A DNA stretch of 63,746 nt, from positions 1 through 63,746 of the forward strand of contig JAMXLF010000090.1 of the NCBI GenBank assembly GCA_024281055.1, given 5' to 3'. Shown in pieces: positions 29,545 to 46,477 of this stretch (position 1 is the stretch's first letter; every line of letters starts with the position of its first letter). Under the pieces are notes generated by a model. It was not told the DNA's origin. It ran no database searches and was given only the letters and a program-made list of their open reading frames with translations. Both the position numbers and the translations under genes were made by a program. The DNA is from Geobacteraceae bacterium (GTDB lineage Bacteria > Desulfobacterota > Desulfuromonadia > Geobacterales > Geobacteraceae).

Positions 29545-32500
29545 CTAGTCATGGGTAATCCAGTTTACTGCGTCGCGCACCGAGTTCTGGTCAAACTTGG
29601 CGCGGAAGCGGATGAATGGCCCCCGTGCGGTGTAGTTCGTTGCTGAAAAATCCTTGTCGGTAAAGCCGAGGAAGTTATAGCCGATGCTGACCCAGCTGTT
29701 CTGCACCACATTGTAGCCGACGGAAACACCCGAGCTGTAGCTGACCTGGTGTAATTGCCAGGAATGGAGAACGCTGCCCCGCAAGCCGATGTCCCATTCC
29801 TTGGTCAGGTCGTAGCGCCCCTCGATGCCGACCAGGTCGGTAAAGCCGCTGCAATTGACGCCATTGGCGTTTTCCATCACGTACTTGGCGCCGTATTGCA
29901 GGGAAATCTGCGTCTTCTTGTCGGGCCTGAAGTTGGCGTTCAGATTGTTGACGATACGCCGGCTGTTGAGGTCGGACACCGTTCCCGCCGTTGCGGTGTC
30001 CAATGTTACCGGGGTAACGGTGTTCAGCGCCGTCCCGGCCCGCAGCCGGTCGTAAATCAGGTCGAGCCGGTCCAGAATGATCCAGCGGGTGGCGAACGGC
30101 CGATAAACGAGCCCGAGGCGAAGATCGCCGTTTACCTTGCCGGAGCCGTCCGCGGCTTTCGTGTCGAAAGCCTGCAAACGGCTCGACCATGCCCATCCTT
30201 CCCGCGGTTCCCCGACGAAGGCGGTCTGAACTCCCCACTTGTCTTCCGAGTGGGCCTGACGGGTCTCCAGCCGCGTGCTCCAGTTCCAGGTCTTCTCTTT
30301 GTAAGTGGTCCCGAGCGAAATCGCGGTGAAGTCCTCTCCTCCCGACGCCGGCGGGACATTGACGTTGAACGTATAGTCCTTGATGTTTCGGACGGTCTGA
30401 CTCCGGTCCAGGCTGGCATCGGCGCTCCACTGCTCGGTCAGCTTCCAGGTCTGTTTCAGCCCGAACAGGGCGAAAAGCCGGTCTCCGTTTTCGTTCAGGT
30501 CCCGTTCCATGGAAGAGTTGAGCGATCCCCCCTGCCAGGGGGTGGACTTCATGCCGAGACGGGTTGTGTTGGTATCCTTGCCCTGACCGTAGGTGAATTC
30601 CTGGTTGGCGAACAGGGTGAGCTTTTCGCTCACTTTATAATCGGCACCCACGGTGGTACGGGTCGGGAAGTCGGTGTTGGCGTTATTGCCGATGGACTGG
30701 TCGTGGTCGACGTGGAGGGTCAGCTTCTTGTTCAGGGTGAGCCAGCTCCCTCCCATGGTCAGCTGCTCCGACGTCTTGGTGCTGCCATCCCCCAGGTGAT
30801 CGCTGGCGTAGCGCACTCCCAGCCGGGCACTGTATTGCAGGTCGGTATAGACGAACTTGCTCTCGATCAGGTCACGGACGCTGTTGTCGGCCACGTTGAG
30901 GTTATACTGGCGGTAGGCCTGGCCGGTCACGCTGATGGAGTCTGCCAGGCGGTACGCAGTGTCGAAGCCCATCTTGCGGGTTCCGGACTCGCTCTGGTTC
31001 TGCTGGCCGAGGCCGAACCCGGGGTCGAGCTGCCGGTAATAGATCGTGCCGTCCAGGTTCGAGGAGCGATGTGCGAGTTCCGCGAGATAGGCATTTCCCT
31101 CCCTGTAGTCCCCTGCAATGTCCGAATCGGTCCGGGCGAGCTCGGCTCTGACCTTGGTGGCACTGTTTATCTGCCATGAGCCGTCCAGACCGTAACTGTT
31201 CGCCTGGCCGGTGACCTGTCCTTCGTGGATGTAAGTAAAGCCGGTCTTTACGGTTTCATCGAGGAACTTGGCCCCCACCCTGCCGCCGGCGTTCAGGGAA
31301 TTCGAGCCCGCGTCACGGGTCTCGTAGTCGACGACGATGTAAATCGGATTGAAGTTTTCATCCCTGCTGTTGATCGGCATCTTGAAGAAAAGGGTGCCGC
31401 TGTCGGTATCGATGGTGTAGTCGAGGTACCGGGACAGGGGCTGGGACGAGATGATCACCTCGCTGCGGAACCGGTCTCTGACCTCAATGGTAATCTTGTC
31501 CGAGTTCTGCACGATGTTCCGGTGCGACAGGTGGTAGAGGCCCGACGTGCCGTCGCCGCGGATCTCGTCCCTGACAAAGGCCTGGCCGGTTTCGCTGGCG
31601 AAGACGTTGTATTCGAACCTCTTCCCATGGTACTCCGATTTGAACCCGGTCAGGCTGCGGCTGTAGCGGGAGAGCTCGGTAACCGTCAGGCCGGTGTCGA
31701 AGTCCCCGAACATGGCGTAGAACTGTTCCCGTTCGATTTTCAAGTAAAGGGTTTTCGAGCTGGCTGCGTCGTACATCTGCTGGGTGCCGTCGCCGTAGAG
31801 GGTGTAAAAGGCGTTCGGGTCGACGGTCTGGAACAAGCTGTTACCGACGTCGGTCGTCCTTTTTGCGGAATCGTAGGCCATGGTCAGGAGCCACTTCCCC
31901 TGGATCGACCCCTTGGCGTAGAAGGCCAGCCGGCCGTTTTCATAGAGGTGCTCGTCGCCGCCGGCCGCGGTGAAGTCCTCGATGTGACCGGAGACGGCAT
32001 TATAACCCGCCGTTCCTTCGGCAAGTCCGACGAGGATCCAGTCGCGCTGCTGGGGAACCAGCCAGGCGCGGTACTGTTCGTCCCGATTGGCCATCGGAAT
32101 GGTTACCGCGACTTCGCCTGTCCGGTTGGTGGGCTGAAGCTGGATGAGCACCACTCCCTCTTTGCCGACGACATACTTGGTTGCCGCGTCGTCTTTGAGG
32201 GCGACTTCGTTCATCTTGGGCTGGTCGAGGTCCTTATACGCTTCATACGGTGAAGAAATCGTGTATTTCCCGGTCATGCCGGGCCGGGCGGGGAAGTCGT
32301 CCTTGTCGAACAGGCGAAGGGCGATTACCGGCGGTTTTTTGCCGTCGGCGACGAGGCGGGAAAGCTCCGGCACCAGTTCCGCCCTGACGGGTGAGGTCGA
32401 GACGTGCAGGACCCGTTCCAGCGTGATCTTCTCGGTGCTCCCCTGCTGCTGGATCTGCGCGACGATCCGGTTGTCTCCTTCCTTCAGATGGATGCCACGC

Positions 32501-35500
32501 CAGTAGGTGACGGCTACGGCTCCGCTGCGCTGCTTGATGACCTTTTCCAGGAGAATGGGATCCACCGCCTCGCCGTTCGCCATCAGCTCCACCTTGTCGG
32601 TGGGGAGATGTCTGATAGCGATATGGGTGCTGGGCACGGGGGGGAAGTACGTCGGTGGCGGCCACACCCAATCCCGGCCGGGCTGGACAGTTTCGATCCA
32701 GGCCTCGTCAAATGCCGGCAATTTTTCGTCATCCTCTTGAGGTGCCGTCGCCGGTTCCTGGCCATTGGCAGGCTGAGCCGTTGACGATGCCGTTCCAGCC
32801 GCCGCGGTGTCCTGAGGCGGGTCTGTTGCATCTTCCTGCGGTTCCGCCGGGGTCCCGGTCCCGGGCGTTGCCGTTGCTGCCAGTGCAGGTGATGGAAGCG
32901 GCGGCGGTGTGGGGAGTTCCGCCTTTTGGACGCCACTCTGTTCTTTTACCATTTCGAGATGGGTTGATTCGACTACCTTCTCTGGCTGGAGCTTGACTTC
33001 CACCCGCCGGTTGAGCGCCCGTCCCTCCGGGGTCTTGTTGTCGGCTGCCGGCATGGTATTTCCCATGCCGGTAACCGTCAAAATCTCCGGCTGGAGATGG
33101 AGCGCTTCGATCAGGTAGCGGCTGACGCTTTCGGCGCGGGCCAGGGAAAGTGCATCGTTGTCCGGATAGATGTTGCGGCTGCGGGACGCGATCCGGACGC
33201 TGTCCGCGTGGCCGGTGACCGTCCCCGCTTCAATTTCCACACCGGTCAATCGTGCTCCCAGGGCATCGATCATGCTTTTGTCGTCGTTGCTCAATGCGGC
33301 GCCGAAGGAGGGGAAATGAGGCTGCAGGATCAGCTCCGGCAGCCGTATGCGGCTCTCCTCCCGAACGCGCCGCAACAGGTTCTCGGCGGTCGGCGCAGGC
33401 TGGCCGGCGACGGCAAGTGCGGCGACGTCGAGCGTTGTCCTGGTCAGCAGCTCCCCCGGTTTGCCGTCACGGGACAGGGTTGCACGGAGACGCAGCTCTC
33501 CGCTCCAATCGCCGCTGCGGTTGCCGAGAGGATAGATCAGGCGGGCGCCTTGGATTGAAGGGTCGGCAAGAGGCGCGCCATCTAGCTGGCTGCTGTTTGC
33601 CGAATAGGTCACCCCTTCGGGAAGAGTCATGATGAGGCTGGTTGCGCTTTGCCCCATCCGTTTTCCCCGCAGCACTACCTGATAGGAGATGGTCTCGTTC
33701 TGCAGGGAGCTGTTCAATTCGAGGCTCACTTCCCCTTTGGCCTGTGGGGCAGGGGAAAGGTCTCCGGTCGTGACCGCTTTCGTGCCGGCAGGGGCCGCCG
33801 TTGCCGCGGGCGACGCCGCTTTGACCGGTGACGGCCCAATGACGCGGAAATCGGTGCGCCAGAGGGTTCCTCCCTGAAGGTCCACGAACTGGGAAAAGGC
33901 TCTGCCGGCAAAGCGATCGTTTTCCTCACAGGCGATGACCTGGTAGCCTTCCGGCAGGGAGTCGACGTCAAGCTGGACCACGTGGGTTCCCGGAAGCACG
34001 TTCTCGAAATGGAACATCCCTTTCTTGTCGGTTACGACATAGGTGCCGTTTTCGAGGAAGATCCTGGCCCCTCCGACCCCGCTTCCTTCCGTTCCGCAGG
34101 GACCGGCGGTCACGGTCCCCATCAGGAAGGAGCGGCTGCTGAAGAAGTCTTGGGTGATCTGCACGGAGGCGGTGGCGTTATTCGACCTGATCCCTCCTCC
34201 CTGCGCGTACGCCAGGTTGATGACGGTCCCCGGCTGGACGCCGACGCCCACCTCGGTTACATAGCTGATCTGGATGGTCGCGCTCGGTTGCATATCGCCG
34301 ACGGGGATCTGGAGAACGGCGCCGTCCGGCGAAATGAGCGGATTGGCTGCTACCAGGCCGTTAAGGCGGAGGGAGCCCTGGCGGTACCGCAGACCCGGCG
34401 GGAGGACATCCGTGACGACTACACCGGTGGTGACCTGGTTTGGATTGACGTTTGTCACCTGCAGGAGGAAGGGGACGAAATCGCCGACCGCGGCCGTGGT
34501 TTTCCCGGCGAGCTTTTGTATCCAGAGCCCCTTGGCCATGGGATCAACCGGGATGTCGACCCGCACGATCGGTCCCGGGTTGACCGTGAACGTCTCCCCG
34601 CGCGATGCGGGCGAGAGGTTGAAAGGTTCGCCCGCGAGGGATTGGAGTATACTGTCGGGCACGCTGGATGGAGCCTGGTAGTTGGCCGGCGGGGTAATTT
34701 TCAGCCGGTAGCTGCCCGGAGGTATGAGCGGAAACCGGTAGGCTCCCGGCGGGAAGTCGTAGTGCCTGCCGCTCGAATCGATTGCCGTGGCGCCGGTGGT
34801 GACGGTGGCCGGGAAGATGCTCACCCCGTCGTCGCCCAGCACAGTGGCCGGATTGCCCGTTGCGTCCAGCAGGGTTACCGTGGCGCCGTTCACCGGCAGA
34901 CCCGAGGTGCTGTCGAAAACCCGGCCGGTCGGGTCGACCAGCGCCGAAGCGGTCAGCACGATCGAGCGGTCCGAAGCTTCCTGATAACTTGCCACAAGCT
35001 GCGCGGAGTCGGTTGCCGACAGCCTGCCGTCATAGAGGATGGGCGTGGCGGTCTGCGGGACGGTCTGGATATACCCGGCGAAGACGCCGGTGTTCGGGCC
35101 GGTTTCGACGAGCCGCAGGACCTCTTTGTCCCCCGAGGAGGAGGTGGTCTCCACCGTGATCGTGTCAACAGCGGTGGGGTTCGCATTCGCGGCAAGGTCC
35201 GTGACCACGATGAACACCGGCTCGCCGGCATGGAAGTAAGGGGTGCTCCGTAGCGGTAGCGGCGCACCGAGATCGAGGGGCGGATACCCCGGCCCGACGG
35301 GAGGGGGAAGGGGGGTGAATGGGCCGGTGGGGTTGCCGCTGGGGCTGAAGGCAGTGCCACCCACCGGCAGCGAGAGATCTGCAGGGGCACCGCCGGCGTA
35401 GCGGTACAGGGCGATGGTTGCCGGGACTGCCGGGGCCTTGACGATGATGGTGTCGATGTTGGACGGGACGACCTGCGGCAGATCATGGCTGGTAAAGGCC

Positions 35501-35706
35501 GCCTGGGCCTGGTTGGTGATCAGGGTGCCGGGAGGAGTCGCCCCCGCGGCGTGGAAGGGAATCGCAAGAACGGCCGCCAGGGCCAGGATGGCGCAGACAA
35601 GCAGCAGACGCAGCACGGCCGGGCGCTCTCCGCCGGTTGCGGGAGAGCATGCTGCCTGTGCAGGCGGGAGATCGGCTCTCCCATATGTCAGTCTGTTATG
35701 CGTCAT
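29545..35706 (-). CDS. Giant DUF11-OmpA-beta-barrel outer-membrane protein (2053 residues)
   Basis: Predicted order: a hydrophobic signal near residues 31-56 after a longer basic N-terminus; beta-rich Ig-like domains; a DUF11/conserved-repeat module (about 390-520, WIQKLAGKTTAAVGDFVPF); a carboxypeptidase-regulatory-like or SdrD-B-like domain (about 530-620); an OmpA peptidoglycan-binding domain (about 795-905, VTGHADSVRI, NRRVEVKL); and a Pro/Ala/Gln linker. After about residue 1290 come many alternating amphipathic strands ending VSIGYNFLGF..., consistent with an outer-membrane barrel. It would tie surface DUF11 proteins to outer membrane and peptidoglycan. It is the last gene of the operon and follows a strong hairpin. 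I know no named homologue. The exact start is uncertain. Confidence 0.78.
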   Translation of the reverse strand: MTHNRLTYGRADLPPAQAACSPATGGERPAVLRLLLVCAILALAAVLAIPFHAAGATPPGTLITNQAQAAFTSHDLPQVVPSNIDTIIVKAPAVPATIALYRYAGGAPADLSLPVGGTAFSPSGNPTGPFTPLPPPVGPGYPPLDLGAPLPLRSTPYFHAGEPVFIVVTDLAANANPTAVDTITVETTSSSGDKEVLRLVETGPNTGVFAGYIQTVPQTATPILYDGRLSATDSAQLVASYQEASDRSIVLTASALVDPTGRVFDSTSGLPVNGATVTLLDATGNPATVLGDDGVSIFPATVTTGATAIDSSGRHYDFPPGAYRFPLIPPGSYRLKITPPANYQAPSSVPDSILQSLAGEPFNLSPASRGETFTVNPGPIVRVDIPVDPMAKGLWIQKLAGKTTAAVGDFVPFLLQVTNVNPNQVTTGVVVTDVLPPGLRYRQGSLRLNGLVAANPLISPDGAVLQIPVGDMQPSATIQISYVTEVGVGVQPGTVINLAYAQGGGIRSNNATASVQITQDFFSSRSFLMGTVTAGPCGTEGSGVGGARIFLENGTYVVTDKKGMFHFENVLPGTHVVQLDVDSLPEGYQVIACEENDRFAGRAFSQFVDLQGGTLWRTDFRVIGPSPVKAASPAATAAPAGTKAVTTGDLSPAPQAKGEVSLELNSSLQNETISYQVVLRGKRMGQSATSLIMTLPEGVTYSANSSQLDGAPLADPSIQGARLIYPLGNRSGDWSGELRLRATLSRDGKPGELLTRTTLDVAALAVAGQPAPTAENLLRRVREESRIRLPELILQPHFPSFGAALSNDDKSMIDALGARLTGVEIEAGTVTGHADSVRIASRSRNIYPDNDALSLARAESVSRYLIEALHLQPEILTVTGMGNTMPAADNKTPEGRALNRRVEVKLQPEKVVESTHLEMVKEQSGVQKAELPTPPPLPSPALAATATPGTGTPAEPQEDATDPPQDTAAAGTASSTAQPANGQEPATAPQEDDEKLPAFDEAWIETVQPGRDWVWPPPTYFPPVPSTHIAIRHLPTDKVELMANGEAVDPILLEKVIKQRSGAVAVTYWRGIHLKEGDNRIVAQIQQQGSTEKITLERVLHVSTSPVRAELVPELSRLVADGKKPPVIALRLFDKDDFPARPGMTGKYTISSPYEAYKDLDQPKMNEVALKDDAATKYVVGKEGVVLIQLQPTNRTGEVAVTIPMANRDEQYRAWLVPQQRDWILVGLAEGTAGYNAVSGHIEDFTAAGGDEHLYENGRLAFYAKGSIQGKWLLTMAYDSAKRTTDVGNSLFQTVDPNAFYTLYGDGTQQMYDAASSKTLYLKIEREQFYAMFGDFDTGLTVTELSRYSRSLTGFKSEYHGKRFEYNVFASETGQAFVRDEIRGDGTSGLYHLSHRNIVQNSDKITIEVRDRFRSEVIISSQPLSRYLDYTIDTDSGTLFFKMPINSRDENFNPIYIVVDYETRDAGSNSLNAGGRVGAKFLDETVKTGFTYIHEGQVTGQANSYGLDGSWQINSATKVRAELARTDSDIAGDYREGNAYLAELAHRSSNLDGTIYYRQLDPGFGLGQQNQSESGTRKMGFDTAYRLADSISVTGQAYRQYNLNVADNSVRDLIESKFVYTDLQYSARLGVRYASDHLGDGSTKTSEQLTMGGSWLTLNKKLTLHVDHDQSIGNNANTDFPTRTTVGADYKVSEKLTLFANQEFTYGQGKDTNTTRLGMKSTPWQGGSLNSSMERDLNENGDRLFALFGLKQTWKLTEQWSADASLDRSQTVRNIKDYTFNVNVPPASGGEDFTAISLGTTYKEKTWNWSTRLETRQAHSEDKWGVQTAFVGEPREGWAWSSRLQAFDTKAADGSGKVNGDLRLGLVYRPFATRWIILDRLDLIYDRLRAGTALNTVTPVTLDTATAGTVSDLNSRRIVNNLNANFRPDKKTQISLQYGAKYVMENANGVNCSGFTDLVGIEGRYDLTKEWDIGLRGSVLHSWQLHQVSYSSGVSVGYNVVQNSWVSIGYNFLGFTDKDFSATNYTARGPFIRFRAKFDQNSVRDAVNWITHD

Positions 35707-35727
35707 CCGTCCTGCCCGAGATGGGTG

Positions 35728-35758
35728 CCAAGCCCCGCAGGCATCCTGCGGGGCTTGG
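35728..35758 (-). other. Perfect 14-bp hairpin between DUF11 genes
   Basis: CCAAGCCCCGCAGG and its exact complement are separated by a 3-base loop. There is no T-run on either side, so it is not a standard intrinsic terminator. It may block exonucleases, or cause partial termination or pausing, before the 2053-residue gene. Confidence 0.8.
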
Positions 35759-35767
35759 CCGGCCTTC

Positions 35768-36808
35768 CTAGTTGATCGTCACGTCATACTTCAGATACAT
35801 CTTCCCACCAGAACCGTTGATGGTGCCGAAGATCACCGTGAGGGTCGGTGCGACATACGACCCGGCGGGCACGGCGGTCCAGGTTGCATTGTCCGGGCTC
35901 GTCCAGGCGTTGACATACGTGACCGAAGCAGTGGGGAGGCTGTCGGTGATGGTGACGCCATTGGCTGCTATGCTCCCGGCATTTTGAACCGTTACCAGGT
36001 ACTCGACGGTCGCGCCCGGGATGTTCTTGGGATTGGTGGTGAGGTTAACGGGATCGCTTATGGTCGTGGCATTCTTGGTGATGCTGAGCACGGGCGCCAA
36101 AACCTTGAAGGCGTCACGATCGGCGCCGATGCCGTCATTCTTCGAATCGTCGTTGTAGGCATCTTTGTCGTCGGCGAGGACGTTGTACACATTGACGGTT
36201 GCGCCGTAGTGGTTGGAGGTGTCGAGCAGGTTGTTGGTGATCACCGTGGTGCCGTCCTCGTAAACCGCCTGGGCCTTGAGGGCATAGGCGAGGATATCGC
36301 CGTCAGCCAGGGAAAGGGGGAGGTTGTCGACGATGATGTAGACGGTTGTCGGAGTATCCGGGACGAGGCTTGCGACGACCTGCGAGCTCTTGGCAAGGTC
36401 CGTATAGGCGCCTGCGGACGCCGTGGTCTTGTTGGAGAGGTTGTTGGGAGCGGCAAAGGGGGTGGTCGAGCTGGCCGCCAGGTCGACGGAGGACAGCTTG
36501 AAGCTCATCTTCGAGTTACCGGTGTTCGTGATGGTGAATTTCAGGGAGGCTGTAGCCTGCCCCGGGTTAATGGTGACGATCGCCCCGTCCGCATGGCTGA
36601 CCGTGAGGTTGATCTTACGGTCGACGGTAAAGCTTGCCGAATTGGATTGTGAGGTCTGGCCCACGCCCCCAACCGTGTAATTGAGGGTGGCGGTGTTGGT
36701 GACGGTGGTGCCAGCGGCCGTTCCGCCAGCGTGGGCTTTTTCGGCCGTGCCGAGGGCCAGGAGCCCCAGGACGAGTACTGCCGCGGTTTGCTTGAGCATC
36801 GATTTCAT
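35768..36808 (-). CDS. Secreted DUF11-domain protein (346 residues)
   Basis: The start chosen is the ATG six bases after AAGGAG (MKSMLKQTAAVLVLGLLALG), giving a clear signal peptide ending near AHA. The N-terminal domain begins GTAAGTTVTNTATLNYTVGG, a pattern shared with the 325-residue neighbour. The C-terminal DUF11 module (ITKNATTISDPVNLTTNPKN, then IPGATVEYLVTVQNAGS) ends YDVTIN. It is probably an extracytoplasmic Ig-fold structural protein. It precedes the giant outer-membrane protein gene. Confidence 0.78.
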   Translation of the reverse strand: MKSMLKQTAAVLVLGLLALGTAEKAHAGGTAAGTTVTNTATLNYTVGGVGQTSQSNSASFTVDRKINLTVSHADGAIVTINPGQATASLKFTITNTGNSKMSFKLSSVDLAASSTTPFAAPNNLSNKTTASAGAYTDLAKSSQVVASLVPDTPTTVYIIVDNLPLSLADGDILAYALKAQAVYEDGTTVITNNLLDTSNHYGATVNVYNVLADDKDAYNDDSKNDGIGADRDAFKVLAPVLSITKNATTISDPVNLTTNPKNIPGATVEYLVTVQNAGSIAANGVTITDSLPTASVTYVNAWTSPDNATWTAVPAGSYVAPTLTVIFGTINGSGGKMYLKYDVTIN

Positions 36809-36942
36809 TTTCGTCTCCTTTTCATGTGTGTGCATCTCGGTTAGTGGTTAATCCTCGTGGTCATTTCCTCGTGTGCGTCGTTTTCCGAAATCATCTCCTT
36901 TCCGTGCGAGTTGTTTATCCCGATAGTCGATGGGTTTTTAGG

Positions 36943-37434
36943 TTACTTGAGCCGTGCCTTGAACCCCACGTCCCCCTCTTTTCCCGGCGGGAGGGGGCTG
37001 GTGAAGGTCCAGCGGATATTGGTGTACTCGTCGGCCCGGGCGGGCCGTTTTTTCCCCTTGACGGTCTTGGTCAGGTTGGCCGGCAGATCGAAGGTCTTCC
37101 CCTTGTCGACGGAAAAGGTGATCGTCGTCCCCGCGCCGAACGCGCTCCCGTCGACGTAGACCATATGCTGGGGCACGGGATTGGTGATGGCCGCTTCCTC
37201 GGCCGGCGTGCTCCCCGTGTTCGTGTAATGGTTGGTAAAGAGGACCACTTCGCCGGGGAGGGCTTTTTCCACCGGTACGAGCTTTGCCTCCTTTTTGCCG
37301 TCCCTGGTGACGGTGACCTCTTTTTCCGCCTTGCTGACGAGCTTGAGGGAATTATCTGCGGCCAGGCCGCTGGTAGCGCAGACGGCCAGGAGCAGGAGGG
37401 CGGCGGCGATTTTTTTCATGGACAGGTGATTCAT
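36943..37434 (-). CDS. Small secreted DUF11-like protein (163 residues)
   Basis: A signal peptide (MKKIAAALLLLAVCATSGLA) is followed by one DUF11-like Ig domain: VEKALPGEVVLFTNHYTNTG, then ITNPVPQHMVYVDGS and IRWTFTSPLPPGKEGDVGF. It ends FKARLK and so lacks the Ile-Asn ending of its neighbours. AAGGAG precedes the ATG, and it follows the 325-residue gene by 17 bp. It is a probable minor component of the same surface structure. Confidence 0.75.
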   Translation of the reverse strand: MNHLSMKKIAAALLLLAVCATSGLAADNSLKLVSKAEKEVTVTRDGKKEAKLVPVEKALPGEVVLFTNHYTNTGSTPAEEAAITNPVPQHMVYVDGSAFGAGTTITFSVDKGKTFDLPANLTKTVKGKKRPARADEYTNIRWTFTSPLPPGKEGDVGFKARLK

Positions 37435-37451
37435 TACGGCTCCTTTCTTGT

Positions 37452-38429
37452 TTAGTTGATGGTGACCTGGAAGGTGATGGTCTTGGTCCCGGAGGCTGAC
37501 GTCAGGTCGCCGAGAGTGACCGTCACCGCGTTTGGCGTGGTGCCACCCACATCTCCCGTGTCGGCGTCCTTCACATCCGTCAGGGTGGTCCCGTTGAGGG
37601 TCAGGGTTCCGCTCTTATAGGTGATGTTGGCGGGAAGGGGGTCGGTGATCGTTACCCCCTTTGCCGTCCCGCTGCCGCTCACGCTCACTTGCAGGGTATA
37701 GGTGATAGTGGCGCCGGGGACCGGCTCGGTGCCGTTGTAGGGGTCTTTCACGGCCGACGATTTGTTGATGGTGAGGACGACGCCGTTGACCTGGTAGATG
37801 CCATTGGCCGTGCCCTGACCGTTCAGGATGGCGAGCACCACATCGACCCCGCCGGTGCCGGCGCCCGTTTTGACCTGCCCGACGGCGCCGGGGCCGAAGC
37901 TGGAGGTTGCGAGCAGCTGGCTGATGCCGGTGTTGCCGTCGGCCTGCCCTGACGGGATGTTATTGAGCACGAAGACGGTCGCGCTCTGGTCCGCGTTGAG
38001 GGGGATGGGAGCGACAACCTGGGTGTCCCCCGCATCGAATTTCCCATCGCCGTTCGTATCGACCCAGAAGGTCTGGGTCGCCGCGGTGGGGTTGAAGTTT
38101 CCGCCGGCCACCGAATCGTTGACGCCGAGGGCGAAGGTGTCGGGACCGTTCCCCGTATTGGTCACCTTGAAGGTGAGAACCTGGTTGGTGCTCGGGGAGG
38201 CAACGGCGACATTGCTGCCGTCAAGCCAGCTCACGGTCACGTTCACAATTTGGGCGACCGTGATGGTGACGGTGTTCGAAGTCGCGGTGGCGGCCTGCGT
38301 GCCGATAGTGAAATTTGCCGTCGCCTTGTCCGAGATGAGGGTGCCCGCCGCGGTCCCCTTGGCATGGGCGCCCCCGGCGCAGGCGAGCACGACTGCCACC
38401 GCGCCGAATAGACTGTAAAGTTTCTTCAT
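37452..38429 (-). CDS. Secreted DUF11-domain protein (325 residues)
   Basis: The signal peptide ends near GGAHA, followed by KGTAAGTLISDKATANFT. Two Ig-like parts follow: an N-terminal domain with a calcium-loop-like DTNGDGKFDAGD (about residues 125-136), and a C-terminal DUF11 module (NGTEPVPGATITYTLQV, ITDPLPANITYKSG) ending FQVTIN. The ATG overlaps the stop of an upstream micro-ORF (ATGA) and has its own AAGGAG. The Asp-rich loop could bind Ca2+. Confidence 0.8.
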   Translation of the reverse strand: MKKLYSLFGAVAVVLACAGGAHAKGTAAGTLISDKATANFTIGTQAATATSNTVTITVAQIVNVTVSWLDGSNVAVASPSTNQVLTFKVTNTGNGPDTFALGVNDSVAGGNFNPTAATQTFWVDTNGDGKFDAGDTQVVAPIPLNADQSATVFVLNNIPSGQADGNTGISQLLATSSFGPGAVGQVKTGAGTGGVDVVLAILNGQGTANGIYQVNGVVLTINKSSAVKDPYNGTEPVPGATITYTLQVSVSGSGTAKGVTITDPLPANITYKSGTLTLNGTTLTDVKDADTGDVGGTTPNAVTVTLGDLTSASGTKTITFQVTIN

Positions 38430-38494: not shown

Positions 38495-38577
38495 AAACCC
38501 TCCTTTTCTTGAATGCGAACCTCTGTTTCTCCTTTCAAACATGGGTCTCTTGGTTTTCTCCGCGTTTTTAGTGACAT
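38491..38577 (-). CDS. Micro-ORF of 28 residues upstream of the coupled pair
   Basis: TGGAGG lies eight bases before its ATG, 19 bp after the stop of the 186-residue gene. The peptide is basic, starting MSLKTRRKPRDPC, and stops in TGA overlapping the next ATG. With the following micro-ORF it fills the 167-bp gap. It is either a translational relay or a small protein; no family recognised. Confidence 0.4.
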   Translation of the reverse strand: MSLKTRRKPRDPCLKGETEVRIQEKEGL

Positions 38578-38596
38578 GTAGCTTTCCTCCATTTCG

Positions 38597-39157
38597 CTAA
38601 TTGACGATCACCTTGAATGTGACCGTGAAATCGGGGTTGTTGGTGCCGTTCGATCCATTGAACGTCCCCTTCGGGTTGACGCGCAGGTACCTGACGGCGG
38701 GCTTGTTGTAGTCGGCGCAGGTGTTGGAGTCGAGGTTCGACCAGGGAGCGGGAAGCGTCAGCGGGAATGCCGTGGCGGTGCAGAGTTGCGTGGGGTCATA
38801 CACGTCCGGAGCATTTCCCGTCTGCCCGGTGTAAAAGATAATGTTGTACCGGTCAGCGTTGCTGCCGGAGAGTTCCAGGTCGACGAGGAAGTTGAAGGAG
38901 TTGCCGGCAACGCAGAACGGCGGGGTGCCGGGGGCGGCGCTGAAAACGGGGTTGACGGTGAACTCCTTGGCGGTGCAGCCTAGGCTGGATCTGGCGCGGG
39001 TGCCGACGCAGGCCTGATCTGAAATCGCCGCCACCGGCGAACCGGTGAGGTCGACGGTCGCTCCCCAGGCCGGCGAAGAGGCCAGGAGCATAAACAGCCA
39101 CACGCCCAGGTAGCGTAATGGCGATAACGGTTTGAGATTTGAAAAAGATGTCAGCAT
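38597..39157 (-). CDS. Secreted 186-residue protein, first gene of the riboswitch-led operon
   Basis: A signal peptide ends near PAWGA (about residue 32). The mature domain contains four or more cysteines (DQACVG, SLGCTA, PPFCVAG, TQLCTA, NTCADY), so disulfides are likely. It closes with the module VRYLRVNPKGTFNGSNG followed by FTVTFKVIVN, shared with two much larger surface proteins in this window. GAGAAGGA precedes the ATG. Expression should depend on the terminator and aptamer located just upstream. Confidence 0.75.
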   Translation of the reverse strand: MLTSFSNLKPLSPLRYLGVWLFMLLASSPAWGATVDLTGSPVAAISDQACVGTRARSSLGCTAKEFTVNPVFSAAPGTPPFCVAGNSFNFLVDLELSGSNADRYNIIFYTGQTGNAPDVYDPTQLCTATAFPLTLPAPWSNLDSNTCADYNKPAVRYLRVNPKGTFNGSNGTNNPDFTVTFKVIVN

Positions 39158-39182
39158 GAATCCTTCTCAGACTGAAAAAACT

Positions 39183-39214
39183 AAAAAACCCATTTTCGAA
39201 AGCCGAAAATGGGT
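39183..39214 (-). terminator. Leader terminator before the 186-residue gene
   Basis: The minus strand reads CCCATTTTCG-gcttt-CGAAAATGGG followed by TTTTTT, ending about 26 bases before the start codon. It lies directly downstream of the aptamer, so it is the probable expression platform. Confidence 0.9.
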
Positions 39215-39353
39215 GCAACTACCCCTACCCCAGACCTGCCGGGTTACTAGGAATAATCACACTCTCTTCGGCGATTCGGCTGTCTGGAGGCTATCCCCAG
39301 ACCCGTAATTCTGCGTCGCCCGGTTTCCCAGGTTTTGCTCTTGTCGGAGAGTG
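39215..39353 (-). promoter_or_regulatory. GEMM-I-type (cGAMP/c-di-GMP) riboswitch, leader 1
   Basis: On the minus strand P1 is CACTCTC (5', at 39353) pairing with GAGAGTG (to 39260). Inside are GAGCAAAACC, a GAAA-capped CCTGG/CCGGG stem, GACGCA, ACGGGTCT and ACAGCCG...TCGCCGAAG, in GEMM-I order. The base aligned with G20 of the V. cholerae Vc2 aptamer is A (39339); A at this site is the known mark of cGAMP-preferring GEMM-Ib aptamers of Geobacter. The stretch 39215-39259, with GGGGTAGGGG and TTGCAC, links the aptamer to the terminator and is conserved in leader 2. Confidence 0.75.
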
Positions 39354-39409
39354 ACAGCGAGTTAATTTTAAATTAAAATAAATTTAAATATCCTGTGTTT
39401 TCAATAGCT

Positions 39410-39426
39410 TGCACATTGTATGCCGC
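39410..39426 (-). promoter_or_regulatory. Candidate sigma-54 promoter, leader 1
   Basis: The minus strand reads GCGGCATACAATGTGCA: GG and GC sit at the canonical -24/-12 spacing (consensus TTGGCAC-N5-TTGCW), with TGCA at -12. A start near 39399 would place the aptamer about 45 bases into the RNA. The same arrangement occurs before leader 2. Confidence 0.55.
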
Positions 39427-39786
39427 TCACGAACCAGTATCCTGATGACGAAAACATAACCTGGCGGCTCTCATTTTATGCGCAGAGCACCATCCGTACG
39501 GTAGTACCAGTCAAGGGCTAATTAAACAATGTGCCGCTTGAAGCCTGCCAATCATGGTTCTATGGGTACCTTACCCCACAAATCACTTGTAATTTGCTCT
39601 TGCGCAAAATGTAATCAGTGAAATAATGGCCCCCGGAAGATAAGAACCCGCCAATACTGCGTACAGATGTCTGATGCATTCGATCTCCGGTGACAAAATC
39701 TGTTAAGCCTGGGATGTCAGATGTTTGACATCATGGCCTCGGCTGAATCTGTTAGATTGTCGTCAACATAGCTAACATGAACCCCC
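39427..39786. other. Intergenic region without a recognised gene
   Basis: The stretch between the leader-1 promoter and the end of the 2146-residue gene holds no convincing ORF. It could contain enhancer sites for a sigma-54 activator. A GATGTCA/TGACATC inverted repeat lies near 39715-39735 but lacks a T-run. I see no clear terminator for the 2146-residue gene. Confidence 0.5.
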
Positions 39787-42700
39787 TCAGTTGATGATTA
39801 CCTTGAACGTTACAGTGAAGCTGGGATTACTGCCGGCACCGGTTGATCCCTTGAACGCCCCCTTCGGATTGATGCGCAGGTACCTGACGGCGGGATCGGT
39901 GCCGTTGGCGCCGGCAGTGGGGACATAGGAATAATCCGTTCCGTCCTTCGAGAACTGGACGTCGTCGGTCTGGCTGCTGAGCCCCCCCCAGGTGAAGGTG
40001 AGGCCGCTCGCGCCGTCGCTGAAGCCGACGGGTGTCCCCGAGACGACGAGGGCCGTATTCGCCGGAATCGGGTCGGTGATGACGATGGAATCGGCGTCCG
40101 CCGTTCCCGCTCCGAAATTGGTCACCAGGATGGTATAGAGGACTTGCGCCCCCGGGATGTTTTTCGGGGACGTCGAGCCGTTGACCGGGTCGGATACCGT
40201 CTGGGCCGTCTTTACCATGGTGATGTTCGGCAGCGGATAGACATTCAGGGTCGCCGAAGCCGATGCCGCATTGTTGCCGGCCGTGGTCTGCAGGGCACCG
40301 GCGGCGATGGTGTTGGTGGCGGGGCCGGCGGTCGAGCTGGTGACGTTGACGATGACCGTGCAGCCCCCTGACGGGATGGAGGTGCCGCTGGCCATGGTGA
40401 AGCTGCCGGCACCGGCCGTGGCCGTGACACCGCCGCAGGTGCCGGTATTGCCGGCGGTGCCTATGGTCATGCCGGTCGGAAACGTGTCGGTGAGGACACT
40501 GGTCAGTGTGATGGCGACGGCGTTGGTGTTGCCGATGGTGACCGTGAGGCTGGTGTTGCCGCCGCTTGGAAGGCTCCCCACGGCGAAGGTCTTGGTCGCC
40601 GTCGGCGGGGCGTAGATGTTCAGGGTGCCGGTAAAGGGTGCGGCCGGTCCCGAGCCGGCGTTGCTCGTCCCGATGGCGCCGGCGGCGATGGTGTTGGGGT
40701 AGGGCCCGTTGCCGGGGGCGGTGACGGTGATGATGATCGAGCAGCTCCCCCCTCCCGGGATGGTTGCGCCGGAGGCGAGCGTTACGGAGTTGGTCGTGTT
40801 GCTGGCCGATCCGCACGAGGGGGTGTTCACTGCCCCGGAGTTCGTCATGCCGGCGGGATAGGTGTCGGTGAACGCGCCGCTGGTGGTGACGGCGATGGTG
40901 TTCGGGTTGGAGATGGTTATCATCATGGAGGACGTCCCGCCGGGGAGGATAGTCGACGGAGTGAACGTCTTGGACACCGTCAGCGGCTGGAGAACGTTCA
41001 GCGTTGCCGACGCGGAGGCGGAGCCGGCACTGCTGTTCACGGTAATGTTGTTGAGGTAGCTTCCCGGAGCGGCGCTCGCGACAGTGACGGTGATCGTGCA
41101 GGTGGTGTTGGCGGCGATCGTGCCGTTGCTGAGGGAGAGCGATCCGCTCCCCGTCGTTACCGTTCCACCGCAGTTCGTCGCGGTCGGCGTGCCGGTGTTA
41201 TTCAACGGGCTCTGATAGGTGTCGGTGAAGCTTACGTTGGTGAGAATGGTGCCGTTGTTGGTGTTCTGGATTTTGATGGTCATGGTCGAGTTGACGTTGA
41301 GCCCGACCTGAGACTGATTGAAGGATTTGGTGACAGTCGGCGCGGCGACGGAGGCGACCGTCAGCTTGTCGGTGCCGCCGGACGGCGTGGCCACCGCGTT
41401 GGTGCTCGTCACGACGCTGGTCGTGTTGATGTAGGTCCCCTGGGTCGGAGCGCTCACCGATACTGACAGGTAGCAGCTGCCGTTGGCCGGGATGGTGCCG
41501 CCGGTCAGGGACAATGCATTGTTGCCGGGGCTGGCAATCTTTGCAGTTCCGCCACAGGTGTTGGTCAGCACCGACGCCGTGGTCATCTGGCCCGGGCTGG
41601 TGGGGAAAGTGTCGGTGAATGCCGCTCCGGTGATGTCCATGCTGTTCGTATTCGACAGGGTGATCTTCAGGGTCGATGTCCCGCTGGTCTCTATCTGGGA
41701 AGGAGAAAACTGTTTCGAAATCCCGGGATAGGGGAGAAGATTTACCGTCAGGCCGGCGCTTGCTGCCGTTCCGGTGAGCGCCACCGGCCCGGCGGCTGTC
41801 GGCAGGTTGGTTGTATTGGTGAGGGTGCCGGCGGTGGCGGCGGTGACGTCTACGGTGACCTGGCAGGTGGTCCCGGGCGCCAGCGAGCCGGCAATGAACC
41901 TGATGTTCGTGTCCCCGACGGCCGATGCTGCGCCGGAAGTGTTGGTGACCGTGCCGCAGCCGGTGGGGGAAAAGGTCATGACGGTATCCTGCAGGGTGAT
42001 CCCCGACGGGAAGTTGTCATCCGCATCGACGGTGGTGATGGGGGCCACGTTTCCGGAAGGGTTCTTCAGCGAGAGCGTCAGTGCCGTGCCGCCGCCCACG
42101 TAAACGCTGGAAGTGCCGAAACTCTTGGTCACGGTGGGGGGCGCATAGACGTTGAGGGTTGCGGAGGCGGCAGAGGCGTTGCTGCCGGCCACGGTCTGGA
42201 GGGCTCCTGCGGCGATGGTGTTGGTGGCGGTCCCGGCGGTCGAGCTGGTGACGTTGACGATCACCGTGCAGCCGCCGGCCGGAATACTGGTGCCGTTGGC
42301 CATCGTGAAGCTGCCGGCTGTGGCGCTGGCGGTGACGCCTGTACAGGTGCCGCTGTTGCCGGCGGTGCCGATGGTCATGCCGGCGGGGAAGCTATCGGTA
42401 AAGGCGCTGGTCAGCGTTATGGCGCCGGCATTGGTGTTGCCGATGGTGACCGTGAGGTTGGCATTGCCGCCGCTGGCCAGGTTCGGCACCGCAAAGGACT
42501 TGGTCACCGTGGGGGCGACCGGCGCTACCGTCAGAGGAGCGCTCGCTGGCGTTCCAGCCAGGGCCACCGGGCCGGCCGCGATTGGCGCATTGGTCGTGTT
42601 GGTGATATTCGCCGTGGCCGAGCTGATGACGTTCACTGCGACCTGGCAGGTGGCGCCGGGAGCGATGGTGGCTGAGGTGAACCTGATGCTGGTGTCTCCT

Positions 42701-45700
42701 GCCGCAGAAGCAGCGCCGCTGGTCTTGGTGACAGAGCCGCAGGCAGCCGGGGTAAAGCTGAAGGTGGTGTTCTGCAGGGTGAGGCCGGCCGGAAAGTTGT
42801 CGTCTACCTGGGCGGTGATGATGGCAGCCAGGTTGGCGGACGGGTTGCCCAGGGTAAGGGTCAGGATAGTGCTGCCGCCATAGGAGATGCTGGCCGGCGC
42901 GAAGCTCTTCGTTACCGTCGGCGGCGCGTAGACGTTCAAGGTGGCGGTGGCGGCCGCGGCGTTGTTGCCGGTCGATGTCTGCAGGGCGCCGGAGGCGATG
43001 GTGTTGCCGGCGGCTCCGGCGGTCGAGCTGGTGACATTGACGACGATGGTGCAGCCGCCAGCCGGGATGGAGGTGCCGTTGGCCATGGTGAATTTGTTGT
43101 CTCCGGCCGTGGCGGTGACGCCGGTGCAGGTGCCGGTGTTGCCAGCGGCGCCGATGGTCATGCCGGCCGGGAAGGTGTCGGTGAAGTTGCTGGTCAGCGT
43201 TATGGCGCTGGCGTTGGTGTTGCTGATGCTGACCGTCAGGTTGGTGTTGCCGCCGCTGGCGATATTGGTGGCGGCAAAGGTTTTGGTGACCGTGGGGGCC
43301 TGGGTGCTGTCCAGGGTGGCCGAGGCGGCTGTCCCGGTGAGGGCGACCCCTCCGGTTGCCGTCGTTGCCGTCGGCGCATTAGTGGTATTGGTGAAGATGT
43401 TGGCGGAGGAAACGGTGATGTTCATCTGCACCTGGCAGGAGGAGCCGGGGGTTTGGGACGTATCGGTGAAACGGACGTTGTTGTCCCCGGCGGCCGAGCC
43501 CCCGCCGGAGATCTTGGTGACCGCGCCGCAGCCGGCAGGGGTATAGGTAAAGGTGGTATTCTTGAGGGTCATGCCGGTGGGGAAGGTGTCAGTCACCCTC
43601 ACGGTCGAAAGGTTGCCCGGGTTGGTGGATGGATTGGCCAGGGTCAGGGTCAGGATGCTCGTGCCGCCGACCCCGATGCTGGCGGGGGAGAAGCTTTTGG
43701 TCACCGTGGGCGGGGTGTAGACATTCAGGGTGGCGTTGGCGCCGCTGGGATCGAGGCCGCCGGACTGGGCGCTGAACTGGGCGCTGTTGTTGACGTAGGC
43801 GCCCTCGGTGTTCCCCTGCACGGTGGCGGTAAATGTACAGGTGGTGCGGCCTGAGGTGATGGCACCGTTTGTGAGCGTGACGCTGGAGGGGGTGAAAGAG
43901 GGGGTGCCGCTGCAGCCGGTGCCGGTCACGGCGCCGACCCCGGTCACGGTGAGGCTGGCCGGGAAGGTGTCGGTGAAGCCGAGGTTGCTCTGGGCCGGGG
44001 TGCCCGTGCCGTTGGTGATGGTGAAGGTCAGGGTGCTGGTTGCGCCGGTGGCGATGGTGGAGGCCGAGTACGCCTTGGTGAGATTGGCGTGGTTGTAGAC
44101 TGTCAGGCCGGCCGAGACCGCCGCGGCATTGTTGCCCGCCGACGTCTTCAGGGCGCCGGCGGCGATGGTGTTGGTGCCGGTTGCCGTGGCGGTGACGTTT
44201 ACGACAATGGTGCAGTTGCTGTTGGCAGGGATGACAGAGCCGCTGGCCATGGTGAACTTGTTGTCCCCGGCAGTGGCGGTGACGCCAGGGCAGGTGCCGG
44301 TATTGCCGGCCGCGCCGTTGACGGTCATGCCGGCCGGGAAGGTATCGGTGAAAGCGCTGGTGAGGGTGATGGGGGTCGCGTTGGGGTTGGTCAAGGTCAC
44401 CGTCATGTTCGTGGTGTCCCCGCTCGCGATGGAGCTGGCGGCAAAGCTCTTGGTCACGGTCGGCGCCGCCTGCACGATGAGGGCTGCGCTGGCGGCGGCC
44501 GCGTTGCTGCCAATGTTCGCGGTGGTGACCGCATTGGCGGCGAGGGTGTTGGTGTAGGTGGCGGCGGTGGCGCTTTGGACGTTGGTCGCTATGGTGCAGC
44601 TGCCGTTGGCCGGGATGGTGCCGCCGGTAAACGTGAGCTTGGCCGGGGTGCCGTTGGTCGGCGTCAGGGTGCCGCCGCAGACCGTGGTGGCGGTCGTGGA
44701 TGCATTGACCAGGTTGGCCGGAAAGGTATCGGTGAAGGCGACCCCGGTGGCGGCAGTATTGTTGGGGTTGGTCAGGGTGATGGTAAGCGCCGAGTTGGTG
44801 TTTGCGGGAACGGTCGTGGGTGAAAAGCTCTTGCTCACCGTCGGGAGACCATAGGCGTTGATGGTGGAGGTGGCGCTGTTGTTGGCGGGGTTGAAGTCGA
44901 TGACCGAGCCCGGAATCGTCAGACTGGCGGTATTGCCGAGGAGGTTCCCGGCCGGCATGGAGTTCAGGGTGGCGTTGACCGTGTAGGTCACGGCCCCGTA
45001 CCTCGGGAGGTTCGCGGTCGTGTTGAGGTTTCCGGAGCCCGAGGTGGCCCCGCAGGAGGTCCCCGCCGGGGACCCCGCGACGACGGCGCATTGCCAGGAG
45101 CCGGGAGTTATGTTCGTCGGGAAGGTGTCGGTGATGCCGACGCCGGTGGCGGGAATATTGTTCGGGCCGTAGTTGCGGGCGGTGATGAGGTACTGGAAGG
45201 AGTTGCCGACGATGGCGCTCGTGATGGCAGGGGTGGTGGTGCCGGTCGCCACCGGGGTCTTGGTGATGCCGAGGTCGATGGCGGTGCTGGTGTTGAGGCT
45301 GGTGATCAGGAGGTTCCGGATCTCGTGGTAGTTGGTGCTGCCGCCAGTGCTGCCGCCGAAGCCGACCATCAGCTGCTGCGACGAGGAGATCGCCGTCGGG
45401 AGCGCCTGGTTGGTGAACATCGGTGTGGGTGACGTGTTGTAGCCGAACTGGACCCAGGCGCTGACGGTCGGGTTGGGGGCCGGCGTGATCTCGATGATGA
45501 CCTTTCGGTAGTTGGCGCTCAACTGGTCGGGGCGGGTGCCGCTGTTGATCCAGAGTGAGCCGTTGTTGCCCGAGGTGGCAATCCAGGGATAGGAGGTGGT
45601 GTCCCCTGTGCCGCCGATGGCGCCGTTGCCGAAGCCGTTCACGGGGCCCCGGAGCGCCAGCGCATTCGGCCGGGAGCCAGGGCCGAGATACCTCCCCTCG

Positions 45701-46227
45701 GTGGGGTTGCTGTAGTTGCCGTATTCGTCGACGCCGATCCCGACGTAGCCGCCGCTGACTCCCGGCGCCGTGGTGTCTCCCCCCTGGGCCGTATTTTTCT
45801 GGGCGTAGCCGAGGGAGCCGCCGAAGGCGCCGATGTTGAAGGGGGAGACTCCGGCATCGAACAGGAAGACGCTGATCCCGTCGGCGCCGTTTCCCCCCCA
45901 GGCGGCGTAGTCGAACTGGATCAGGACCCCGGCGCTCAGGTCGAAGGTAGTGGTGTTGTAGGCAAAACCGGTCTGTTGGCCGGAATTGTTGGTGATGCGG
46001 AGCCACCCCGATCCGACGGGATCGGTGCCGTTGCTGGCGGTAAGGACGGCCGAGTTGGGGTTGCCGCCGAGGACCCACCCGCTGGCGTTAGCGTCGGTCA
46101 TCGGCGCATTGACGATGATGTAGCCATGGGCCGCACCGGCGCAGACGAGCCAGAGCACCACGAAAATCAGGCTGGCCAAGGTGCTCCCTGCCCTGCAAAA
46201 CTTTTGCCCTTTCGTAGTGCAAGCCAT
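39787..46227 (-). CDS. Giant lectin-like plus 14-repeat DUF11 surface protein (2146 residues)
   Basis: A signal peptide ends near AAHG. Residues about 36-310 resemble an L-type lectin domain (ADGISVFLFD, GGSLGYAQK, YVGIGVDEYGNY). About 14 DUF11/TIGR01451-like modules of ~115-130 residues follow, each with a (P)TVTKSF start, LTxTLxNPN, FTDTFPAGM and GCTIxVNVTSSTAG. The last module ends with VRYLRINPKGAFKGSTG and FTVTFKVIIN. The module DNA is highly repetitive, so copy number may vary between strains or be mis-assembled. It is likely a cell-surface fibre or adhesin recognising glycans. The start codon lies only 16 bp after the riboswitch terminator. Confidence 0.82.
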   Translation of the reverse strand: MACTTKGQKFCRAGSTLASLIFVVLWLVCAGAAHGYIIVNAPMTDANASGWVLGGNPNSAVLTASNGTDPVGSGWLRITNNSGQQTGFAYNTTTFDLSAGVLIQFDYAAWGGNGADGISVFLFDAGVSPFNIGAFGGSLGYAQKNTAQGGDTTAPGVSGGYVGIGVDEYGNYSNPTEGRYLGPGSRPNALALRGPVNGFGNGAIGGTGDTTSYPWIATSGNNGSLWINSGTRPDQLSANYRKVIIEITPAPNPTVSAWVQFGYNTSPTPMFTNQALPTAISSSQQLMVGFGGSTGGSTNYHEIRNLLITSLNTSTAIDLGITKTPVATGTTTPAITSAIVGNSFQYLITARNYGPNNIPATGVGITDTFPTNITPGSWQCAVVAGSPAGTSCGATSGSGNLNTTANLPRYGAVTYTVNATLNSMPAGNLLGNTASLTIPGSVIDFNPANNSATSTINAYGLPTVSKSFSPTTVPANTNSALTITLTNPNNTAATGVAFTDTFPANLVNASTTATTVCGGTLTPTNGTPAKLTFTGGTIPANGSCTIATNVQSATAATYTNTLAANAVTTANIGSNAAAASAALIVQAAPTVTKSFAASSIASGDTTNMTVTLTNPNATPITLTSAFTDTFPAGMTVNGAAGNTGTCPGVTATAGDNKFTMASGSVIPANSNCTIVVNVTATATGTNTIAAGALKTSAGNNAAAVSAGLTVYNHANLTKAYSASTIATGATSTLTFTITNGTGTPAQSNLGFTDTFPASLTVTGVGAVTGTGCSGTPSFTPSSVTLTNGAITSGRTTCTFTATVQGNTEGAYVNNSAQFSAQSGGLDPSGANATLNVYTPPTVTKSFSPASIGVGGTSILTLTLANPSTNPGNLSTVRVTDTFPTGMTLKNTTFTYTPAGCGAVTKISGGGSAAGDNNVRFTDTSQTPGSSCQVQMNITVSSANIFTNTTNAPTATTATGGVALTGTAASATLDSTQAPTVTKTFAATNIASGGNTNLTVSISNTNASAITLTSNFTDTFPAGMTIGAAGNTGTCTGVTATAGDNKFTMANGTSIPAGGCTIVVNVTSSTAGAAGNTIASGALQTSTGNNAAAATATLNVYAPPTVTKSFAPASISYGGSTILTLTLGNPSANLAAIITAQVDDNFPAGLTLQNTTFSFTPAACGSVTKTSGAASAAGDTSIRFTSATIAPGATCQVAVNVISSATANITNTTNAPIAAGPVALAGTPASAPLTVAPVAPTVTKSFAVPNLASGGNANLTVTIGNTNAGAITLTSAFTDSFPAGMTIGTAGNSGTCTGVTASATAGSFTMANGTSIPAGGCTVIVNVTSSTAGTATNTIAAGALQTVAGSNASAASATLNVYAPPTVTKSFGTSSVYVGGGTALTLSLKNPSGNVAPITTVDADDNFPSGITLQDTVMTFSPTGCGTVTNTSGAASAVGDTNIRFIAGSLAPGTTCQVTVDVTAATAGTLTNTTNLPTAAGPVALTGTAASAGLTVNLLPYPGISKQFSPSQIETSGTSTLKITLSNTNSMDITGAAFTDTFPTSPGQMTTASVLTNTCGGTAKIASPGNNALSLTGGTIPANGSCYLSVSVSAPTQGTYINTTSVVTSTNAVATPSGGTDKLTVASVAAPTVTKSFNQSQVGLNVNSTMTIKIQNTNNGTILTNVSFTDTYQSPLNNTGTPTATNCGGTVTTGSGSLSLSNGTIAANTTCTITVTVASAAPGSYLNNITVNSSAGSASASATLNVLQPLTVSKTFTPSTILPGGTSSMMITISNPNTIAVTTSGAFTDTYPAGMTNSGAVNTPSCGSASNTTNSVTLASGATIPGGGSCSIIITVTAPGNGPYPNTIAAGAIGTSNAGSGPAAPFTGTLNIYAPPTATKTFAVGSLPSGGNTSLTVTIGNTNAVAITLTSVLTDTFPTGMTIGTAGNTGTCGGVTATAGAGSFTMASGTSIPSGGCTVIVNVTSSTAGPATNTIAAGALQTTAGNNAASASATLNVYPLPNITMVKTAQTVSDPVNGSTSPKNIPGAQVLYTILVTNFGAGTADADSIVITDPIPANTALVVSGTPVGFSDGASGLTFTWGGLSSQTDDVQFSKDGTDYSYVPTAGANGTDPAVRYLRINPKGAFKGSTGAGSNPSFTVTFKVIIN

Positions 46228-46242
46228 TCAATCCCTCACAAA

Positions 46243-46275
46243 CAAAAAATCCCATTTTCAAAAGCCGAAAATGAG
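46243..46275 (-). terminator. Leader terminator before the 2146-residue gene
   Basis: The minus strand reads CATTTTC-ggctttt-GAAAATG then GGATTTTTT, ending 16 bases before the start codon. It is close in sequence to the terminator of leader 1. Confidence 0.85.
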
Positions 46276-46419
46276 TGCAACTCCCCCCTACCCCAAAATA
46301 ACCGGATTACTGGGAACAATCGCACTCTCTTCGGTGATTCGGCCAACCAGCACAGTGGATCTGCGTTCGGTGTCGCCAGGGTATCCTGGGCTTGCTCTTT
46401 TTCGGCGAGCCGAGGATTG
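46276..46419 (-). promoter_or_regulatory. GEMM-I-like riboswitch, leader 2
   Basis: On the minus strand it aligns with leader 1: GAGCAAGCC, a CCCAGG/CCTGG stem, CGAC...CGCAGA, GGCCGAATCACCGAAG, then GAGAGTG. The outer stem uses CAATC/GATTG (46415-46419 with 46317-46321) instead of the leader-1 pairing. The G20-equivalent base is again A (46396). It has a 6-base insertion in the GACGCA region and a short P2, so it is less canonical. GAGTGC can pair alternatively with the downstream GCACTC at the terminator base, a plausible switch. Confidence 0.6.
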
Positions 46420-46460
46420 ATTTGGTTGATTTTATGTGCTGGCGAAAGTTTTTCATTAAA

Positions 46461-46477
46461 AGCACTAATTGTGCCAA
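46461..46477 (-). promoter_or_regulatory. Candidate sigma-54 promoter, leader 2
   Basis: The minus strand reads TTGGCACAATTAGTGCT, matching TTGGCACG-N4-TTGCW at all but two positions, with exact GG/GC spacing. A start near 46450 precedes the aptamer by about 30 bases. Confidence 0.75.

Follow-up and report, generated by a model that had tools for sequence, protein, structure and literature searches.

Layout and conservation of the DUF11 locus

The window considered here is the whole stretch of 63,746 nucleotides (nt) analysed from a Geobacteraceae bacterium (contig JAMXLF010000090.1). Its minus strand carries, from 46477 to 29545, a locus encoding DUF11 proteins together with a protein of 2053 amino acids (aa) that ends in a large predicted β-barrel. 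The list of open reading frames (ORFs) divides the locus into two units, unit 1 with one gene and unit 2 with five, in the order p186, p325, p163, p355 and the 2053-aa protein; ORF calling thus recovered all six long minus-strand ORFs of the initial annotation. The encoded proteins and their main domains are as follows.

39787..46227, minus strand: 2146-aa secreted repeat protein of unit 1, 12 DUF7933 and 5 DUF11 stretches (Pfam)
38597..39157, minus strand: p186, secreted-looking; an ORF with no Pfam match
37452..38429, minus strand: p325, secreted, C-terminal DUF11 (Pfam)
36943..37434, minus strand: p163, secreted, a single DUF11-like domain (NCBIfam); signature partner of the barrel
35768..36835, minus strand: p355, secreted, C-terminal DUF11 (Pfam)
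29545..35706, minus strand: 2053-aa protein, with CarboxypepD_reg (residues 260-340), DUF11 (395-514), OmpA (802-900) and the C-terminal barrel
33007..33303, minus strand: OmpA domain (peptidoglycan-binding type) of the 2053-aa protein (Pfam, 50 bits)
29548..32370, minus strand: C-terminal barrel domain of the 2053-aa protein, 941 aa modelled, with a small β-domain at model residues 263-340

DUF11 (PF01345) scores above the Pfam cut-off in p355, p325, the 2053-aa protein and the 2146-aa repeat protein, while p163 is below it in Pfam (20.2 bits versus 24.6) and above it in NCBIfam (TIGR01451, 29.1 bits versus 24). DUF11 is thus recognised in five of the six proteins, in p163 by NCBIfam only, while p186 has zero matches in both Pfam and NCBIfam. 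In 8 of 16 family loci, p186 resembles the N-terminus of a larger protein encoded downstream of the barrel. The OmpA domain (PF00691) is well above its cut-off of 27.2 bits. A hydrophobic, signal-like segment, judged by eye, opens all six proteins; furthermore, p325, p355 and the N-terminus of the 2053-aa protein have in common a short AGT..N.A..F...SN module, and in both p325 and p355 the last DUF11 strand is the end of the protein.

The 2053-aa protein was searched for in 48 genomes of the family, the source genome included, and full-length orthologs were found at 16 loci in 15 other genomes. A p163 ortholog lies upstream on the same strand at all 16 (175-204 bits) and at none of four more distant barrel loci (L083-L086). 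Three of the latter (L083-L085) belong to a second barrel family, about 30% identical, in which a 435-442-aa DUF11 protein adjoins the barrel. The source genome has one true copy of p163, the three weaker matches being DUF11 parts of the same locus.

Beyond the family, a scan of genome contigs with the barrel profile A1 gave 220 relatives, of which 80 were kept, with 40-58% identity in the best segment. By record title, they come from Desulfobacterota, Gamma- and Betaproteobacteria, Nitrospirota, Krumholzibacteriia and one zetaproteobacterium; the phyla rest on these titles, as the Myxococcia label that the taxonomy table gives to some deltaproteobacterial metagenome-assembled genomes (MAGs) was not trusted, and the one locus titled as a halobacterial archaeon (L161) is probably mis-binned. 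All of the 80 named loci are in the set A3 except L116 (stop codon), L154 (barrel split over two frames) and L161 (partial match), which makes 77. The named set overlaps the family set (L097 is the L068 locus), and the two are not independent.

Gene order was counted at those 52 loci where the sequence before the barrel ORF is 4.5 kb or longer; in the other 28 of the 80, either no barrel ORF was found or this stretch is shorter. A p163-like gene precedes the barrel on the same strand at 51 of these 52 loci, and 47 have a mid-size DUF11 gene in addition, 30 of them two or more; the remaining parts of these loci gave three mid-size matches and not one p163-like gene. The profiles were built from the same loci, which makes the count partly circular. 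A protein of at least 500 aa resembling the 2146-aa repeat protein is encoded at 31 of the 52 loci, upstream in 14 and downstream in 17. Whole-genome profile searches also covered 395 genomes of the phylum, with E limits of 1e-80 for the barrel and 1e-15 for p163: the barrel occurs in 18, p163 in 16 and the two together in 14, 13 of which have them within 6 kb of each other. The hypergeometric probability of such an overlap is 2e-20 if relatedness is ignored, the p163 profile for this search also being derived from barrel loci. The co-occurrence sought among Geobacteraceae is therefore strong, and it reaches well beyond that family.

No account of the cassette was found in the literature search, in which one query was represented by the best 25 of its 1,502 matches. 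DUF11 proteins do figure, in PMC10787695 and PMC11224092, in aggregating methanogens, which is another setting than the present cassette.

The predicted barrel domain

For the C-terminal 941 residues of the 2053-aa protein, Pfam gives nothing at E up to 0.05. Ten barrel domains were compared with Pfam in all, of which seven had no match, one reached the cut-off of the generic OMP_b-brl family and two remained sub-threshold. AlphaFold, run on 84 sequences, modelled the domain with a predicted local distance difference test score (pLDDT) of 77.9 and a predicted template modelling score (pTM) of 0.75, replacing a poor first run on 16 sequences (pLDDT 53.4). The model has 32 strands from residue 342 onward and about seven before, with the small β-domain (263-340) between them.

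The structure search with Foldseek placed SlpA chains first, followed by MtrB, TonB receptors, LptD and FimD, and SprA was also matched. In VIA, BtuB reached Z 17.3 over 230 residues with a root-mean-square deviation (rmsd) of 7.5, and FimD Z 16.5 over 357 residues (rmsd 10.3); FimD and PapC align in order with the model, but no better than other barrels do. A viral library gave weak matches, some of them barrels. SlpA, MtrB, the TonB receptors, LptD, FimD and SprA thus all match, and none of them stands out. The C-terminal β-barrel claimed by the initial annotation is nevertheless borne out, as a prediction, by AlphaFold, Foldseek and VIA together.

Large barrels with peptidoglycan-binding parts are already known. 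SprA, the translocon of type 9 secretion, has a size comparable to that predicted here (36 strands according to PMC10994853; SlpA has 28 or 30 according to PMC9388160) and was matched as 8gl6_A (E 8.1e-6). It differs in that the window barrel has no sequence match to any chain of the Protein Data Bank (PDB), profile A1 having found none up to E 10, solved SprA included. TraB, of myxobacterial outer-membrane exchange, resembles the 2053-aa protein in its OmpA-type domain; however, the NCBIfam match spans only residues 824-909 and scores 34.6 bits against a cut-off of 700.

RNA leaders and promoter-like sites

Each unit is preceded by an RNA leader and a sigma-54-like site.

39411..39424, minus strand: sigma-54-like promoter site (GGCAT-N6-TGC) of unit 2, equalled in 5 of 300 shuffles (P 0.017)
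39267..39349, minus strand: GEMM-I aptamer of leader 1, whose selectivity base is A (AAGAGCAAA); RF01051, 55.4 bits
39178..39266, minus strand: predicted expression platform of leader 1, antiterminator and terminator (stem 39214-39188), by folding
46462..46475, minus strand: sigma-54-like promoter site (GGCAC-N6-TGC) of unit 1, the best within 150 nt and equalled in 0 of 300 shuffles
46330..46407, minus strand: degenerate GEMM-like aptamer of leader 2, P1 5' strand deleted; own model, 19.4 bits, E 0.05
46240..46343, minus strand: expression platform of leader 2, antiterminator strands and terminator (stem 46275-46251), 85% identical to leader 1

Leader 1, before unit 2, exceeds the Rfam gathering score of 35 for RF01051. 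Its ligand-contacting base in the J1/2 junction is A in alignment A2, the type associated with cyclic GMP-AMP (cGAMP); the base is named and numbered as in Vc2. Its position was set from alignment A2 and the cGAMP-aptamer numbering in PMC6274999 and also PMC9481103. An aptamer of Desulfobacca acetoxidans with the same base change binds cGAMP markedly better, as PMC9481103 reports, and PMC9262584 describes the base as a selectivity factor rather than a hard filter. Because of the A at this base and these two reports, leader 1 is likely to prefer cGAMP and not likely to be exclusive for it.

Free leader 1 folds as a long antiterminator that pairs the 3' side of P1 with the 5' side of the terminator. 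The computed probability of the terminator is 0.01 in the free RNA and 0.99 with P1 forced, at a cost of 7.1 kcal/mol, and leader 1 is therefore predicted to be an OFF switch. Compared with the GEMM-I and GEMM-Ib riboswitches of Geobacter, it matches RF01051 in full and carries the cGAMP subgroup's A base, and it precedes genes of the same kind (surface functions). It differs in being predicted OFF rather than ON, in its J1/2 sequence (AAGAGC, not AAUACU), in governing a DUF11 cassette and in having a sister leader without a sensor.

This sister, leader 2, gave no GEMM in the Rfam search up to E 5, and aligned to leader 1 it has lost the 5' strand of P1 and its aptamer has drifted. The terminator platform is common to both (83% and 90% identical in a separate comparison from that listed), and the computed terminator probability of leader 2 is 0.0006. 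A second intact riboswitch was rejected, given the missing Rfam match and the deleted strand, and we read leader 2 as a sister that lost its sensor and is probably locked ON. The GEMM-I-like leaders proposed for both units are thus confirmed for leader 1 and not for leader 2.

The source genome contains 41 RF01051 matches, 40 of them above the cut-off. By eye, the J1/2 of 30 of its GEMM loci is UACU-type A in 15, AAGAGC-type A in five, leader 1 included, and G in 10; the genes behind the other four AAGAGC-type leaders (L004, L008, L009 and L017) were also inspected by eye. A GEMM leader lies in the fetched region of 14 of the 16 orthologous family operons; at the density of the source genome, a stretch of 13 kb would contain one with a probability of 0.11 (relatedness ignored). 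Rfam labels 13 of the 14 as c-di-GMP-I-GGC (RF03167), above the gathering score. All 13 have A where the model consensus GACGCG has its final G, and all those printed read GACGCA in J2/3; that "GGC" denotes the G after GACGC in J2/3 is our own interpretation. Because A stands where the model has G, the label was rejected as a sign of an orphan ligand, and we take the 13 as putative cyclic di-GMP (c-di-GMP) type leaders with G at the selectivity base.

The fourteenth leader, L068, is A-type like that of the window, and the operon has an A-type leader in two Desulfuromonadales MAGs as well (L118 and L122). In a FastTree tree of the barrel, rooted at the midpoint and read without its support values, the window falls together with G038, which has a G-type leader; judging by this grouping, orthologous operons seem to have changed their ligand preference. 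The second-messenger control that had been proposed for the whole locus is thus well supported for unit 2 and the 14 family operons, and not for unit 1, whose aptamer is lost. A missing GEMM in the named loci is weak evidence, as many flanks end inside the operon; L097, for example, lacks the leader seen in L068, though it is the same locus. In Geobacter sp. UBA9964, the operon is followed by four GEMM aptamers in a stretch of about 1.2 kb (L097, 18065-19254).

Sigma-54-like sites before both units were confirmed by the shuffle test, the scoring weights being our own, and they stand upstream of each leader at a similar distance, the end of the GG-N10-GC site being 60 nt from one aptamer region and 53 nt from the other. 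Across the window, six GG-N10-GC sites were seen and 5.5 expected, so these two are notable only by their position. Like the two leaders of the window, the A-type L118 and L122 have a convincing site before them; none was found before the A-type L068 or at the 13 G-type loci, for which reason such sites were rejected as a general feature of the operon.

Elsewhere in the window, a 488-aa GGDEF-EAL protein (26674-28140, plus strand), with GRNEF as its GGDEF motif and an EAL motif present, is encoded some 1.4 kb away from where the barrel gene ends and is perhaps a c-di-GMP phosphodiesterase. The plus strand also encodes a 1194-aa protein with DUF6701 (15375-18959) and a 1862-aa protein with UvrA domains (19617-25205), apparently a double-length UvrA, and the minus strand an adjacent pair of acetyl-CoA hydrolase/transferase paralogs (47006-50485).

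A candidate surface cassette and its alternatives

The conserved gene order across phyla, the co-inheritance of p163 and the barrel, the secreted-looking DUF11 partners and the combination of OmpA with a large predicted barrel are all computed results. From them, the locus is read as one copy of a conserved and apparently undescribed surface cassette, in which the barrel would be a peptidoglycan-tied platform for a DUF11 coat or fibre and unit 2 would be under cGAMP-type OFF control; we give this reading a probability of roughly 0.55. The cassette would consist of p325, p163, p355 and the giant barrel protein, with a long DUF11-type repeat protein often nearby. The barrel protein would sit in the outer membrane with its OmpA-type domain tied to peptidoglycan, which fits its domains, and would move the DUF11 proteins out, hold them, or both, so that they could build the coat or fibre. 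Unit 2 would be read from the sigma-54-like promoter through the GEMM-I aptamer; bound ligand would let P1 form, break the antiterminator and stop transcription. Before the repeat-protein gene, the loss of P1 from leader 2 would give constitutive read-through.

Several observations weigh against this proposal. Closure of the strands as one barrel is putative, and the Foldseek query template modelling scores (TM-scores) to known barrels are only near 0.2 (about 0.14-0.24); surface location, export and the fibre are inferred from sequence and model. Among the 395 genomes, the barrel occurs without p163 in four and p163 without the barrel in two. Two family operons, L071 and L072, have no GEMM in the fetched region, folding shows no switch contrast for the L068 leader (terminator probability 0.96, and 0.99 with P1 forced) and no clear switch for the G-type leaders, and the attempt to obtain the sign of switches other than leader 1 from folding was dropped for want of clear contrast. 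Finally, deletion of the cGAMP synthase in G. sulfurreducens lowered expression behind the switches, that is, they act as ON switches, as stated in PMC6456294.

A bolder version, which can be held only tentatively, sees an undescribed outer-membrane secretion and assembly system in at least four phyla, in which a plugged barrel of at least 36 strands, tied to peptidoglycan, exports Ig-like DUF11 subunits and links them, with p163 as dedicated partner, into a fibre or layer on the surface, and which in Desulfuromonadia is under cyclic-dinucleotide RNA control with a changed c-di-GMP/cGAMP preference. Rather doubtful is the alternative that the barrel is a structural connector from outer membrane to peptidoglycan, like SlpA (SDBC) of Deinococcus, with a DUF11 coat bound to it and no export. 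Foldseek ranks SlpA chains first (8ae1_A, E 7.5e-9), both proteins unite a large barrel with a peptidoglycan-binding domain, and the OmpA-type domain stands where SlpA has SLH (PMC9388160). However, SlpA has SLH and a coiled coil and no DUF11 operon, whereas Pfam found neither SLH nor a coiled-coil stalk in the 2053-aa protein, which has OmpA, DUF11 and Ig-like domains instead; the TM-score is 0.21, and a connector explains neither the plug-like insert nor why there is a small dedicated partner, p163. It is unlikely that the barrel works like an usher, as an assembly pore through which Ig-like DUF11 subunits would be exported and put in order along a route of the chaperone-usher type. The order in which FimD and PapC align along model residues 108-641, the β-domain inserted after the first seven strands of a large barrel and the Ig-like secreted partners would suit such a pore. 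FimD and PapC ushers have 24 strands, however, whereas more than 32 are predicted here, BtuB scores equally high, and the rmsd is 10 Å. Furthermore, no usher Pfam match was found in the 2053-aa protein (E up to 0.01) or the 10 barrel domains (E up to 0.05), nor any chaperone match, and donor-strand extension is only hypothetical.

For leader 2, a working riboswitch of a new ligand class rather than a relic is very improbable: its platform is kept at 83-90% identity and still folds, but the leader is found only in its own genome among the 48 of the family, and it is without the P1 5' strand.

A gene order that is kept across several phyla, around a predicted outer-membrane barrel that ranks among the larger ones, should serve a definite function in the envelope, and if the barrel exports or anchors the DUF11 proteins, it would represent a new way of building a Gram-negative surface. 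In Geobacteraceae, the RNA leaders link the cassette with messengers whose control over growth on Fe(III) oxides and electrodes is known; a role with minerals or electrodes may be envisaged. The occurrence of both G and A at the selectivity base among orthologous leaders offers, in addition, a natural test of how a regulon changes its messenger.

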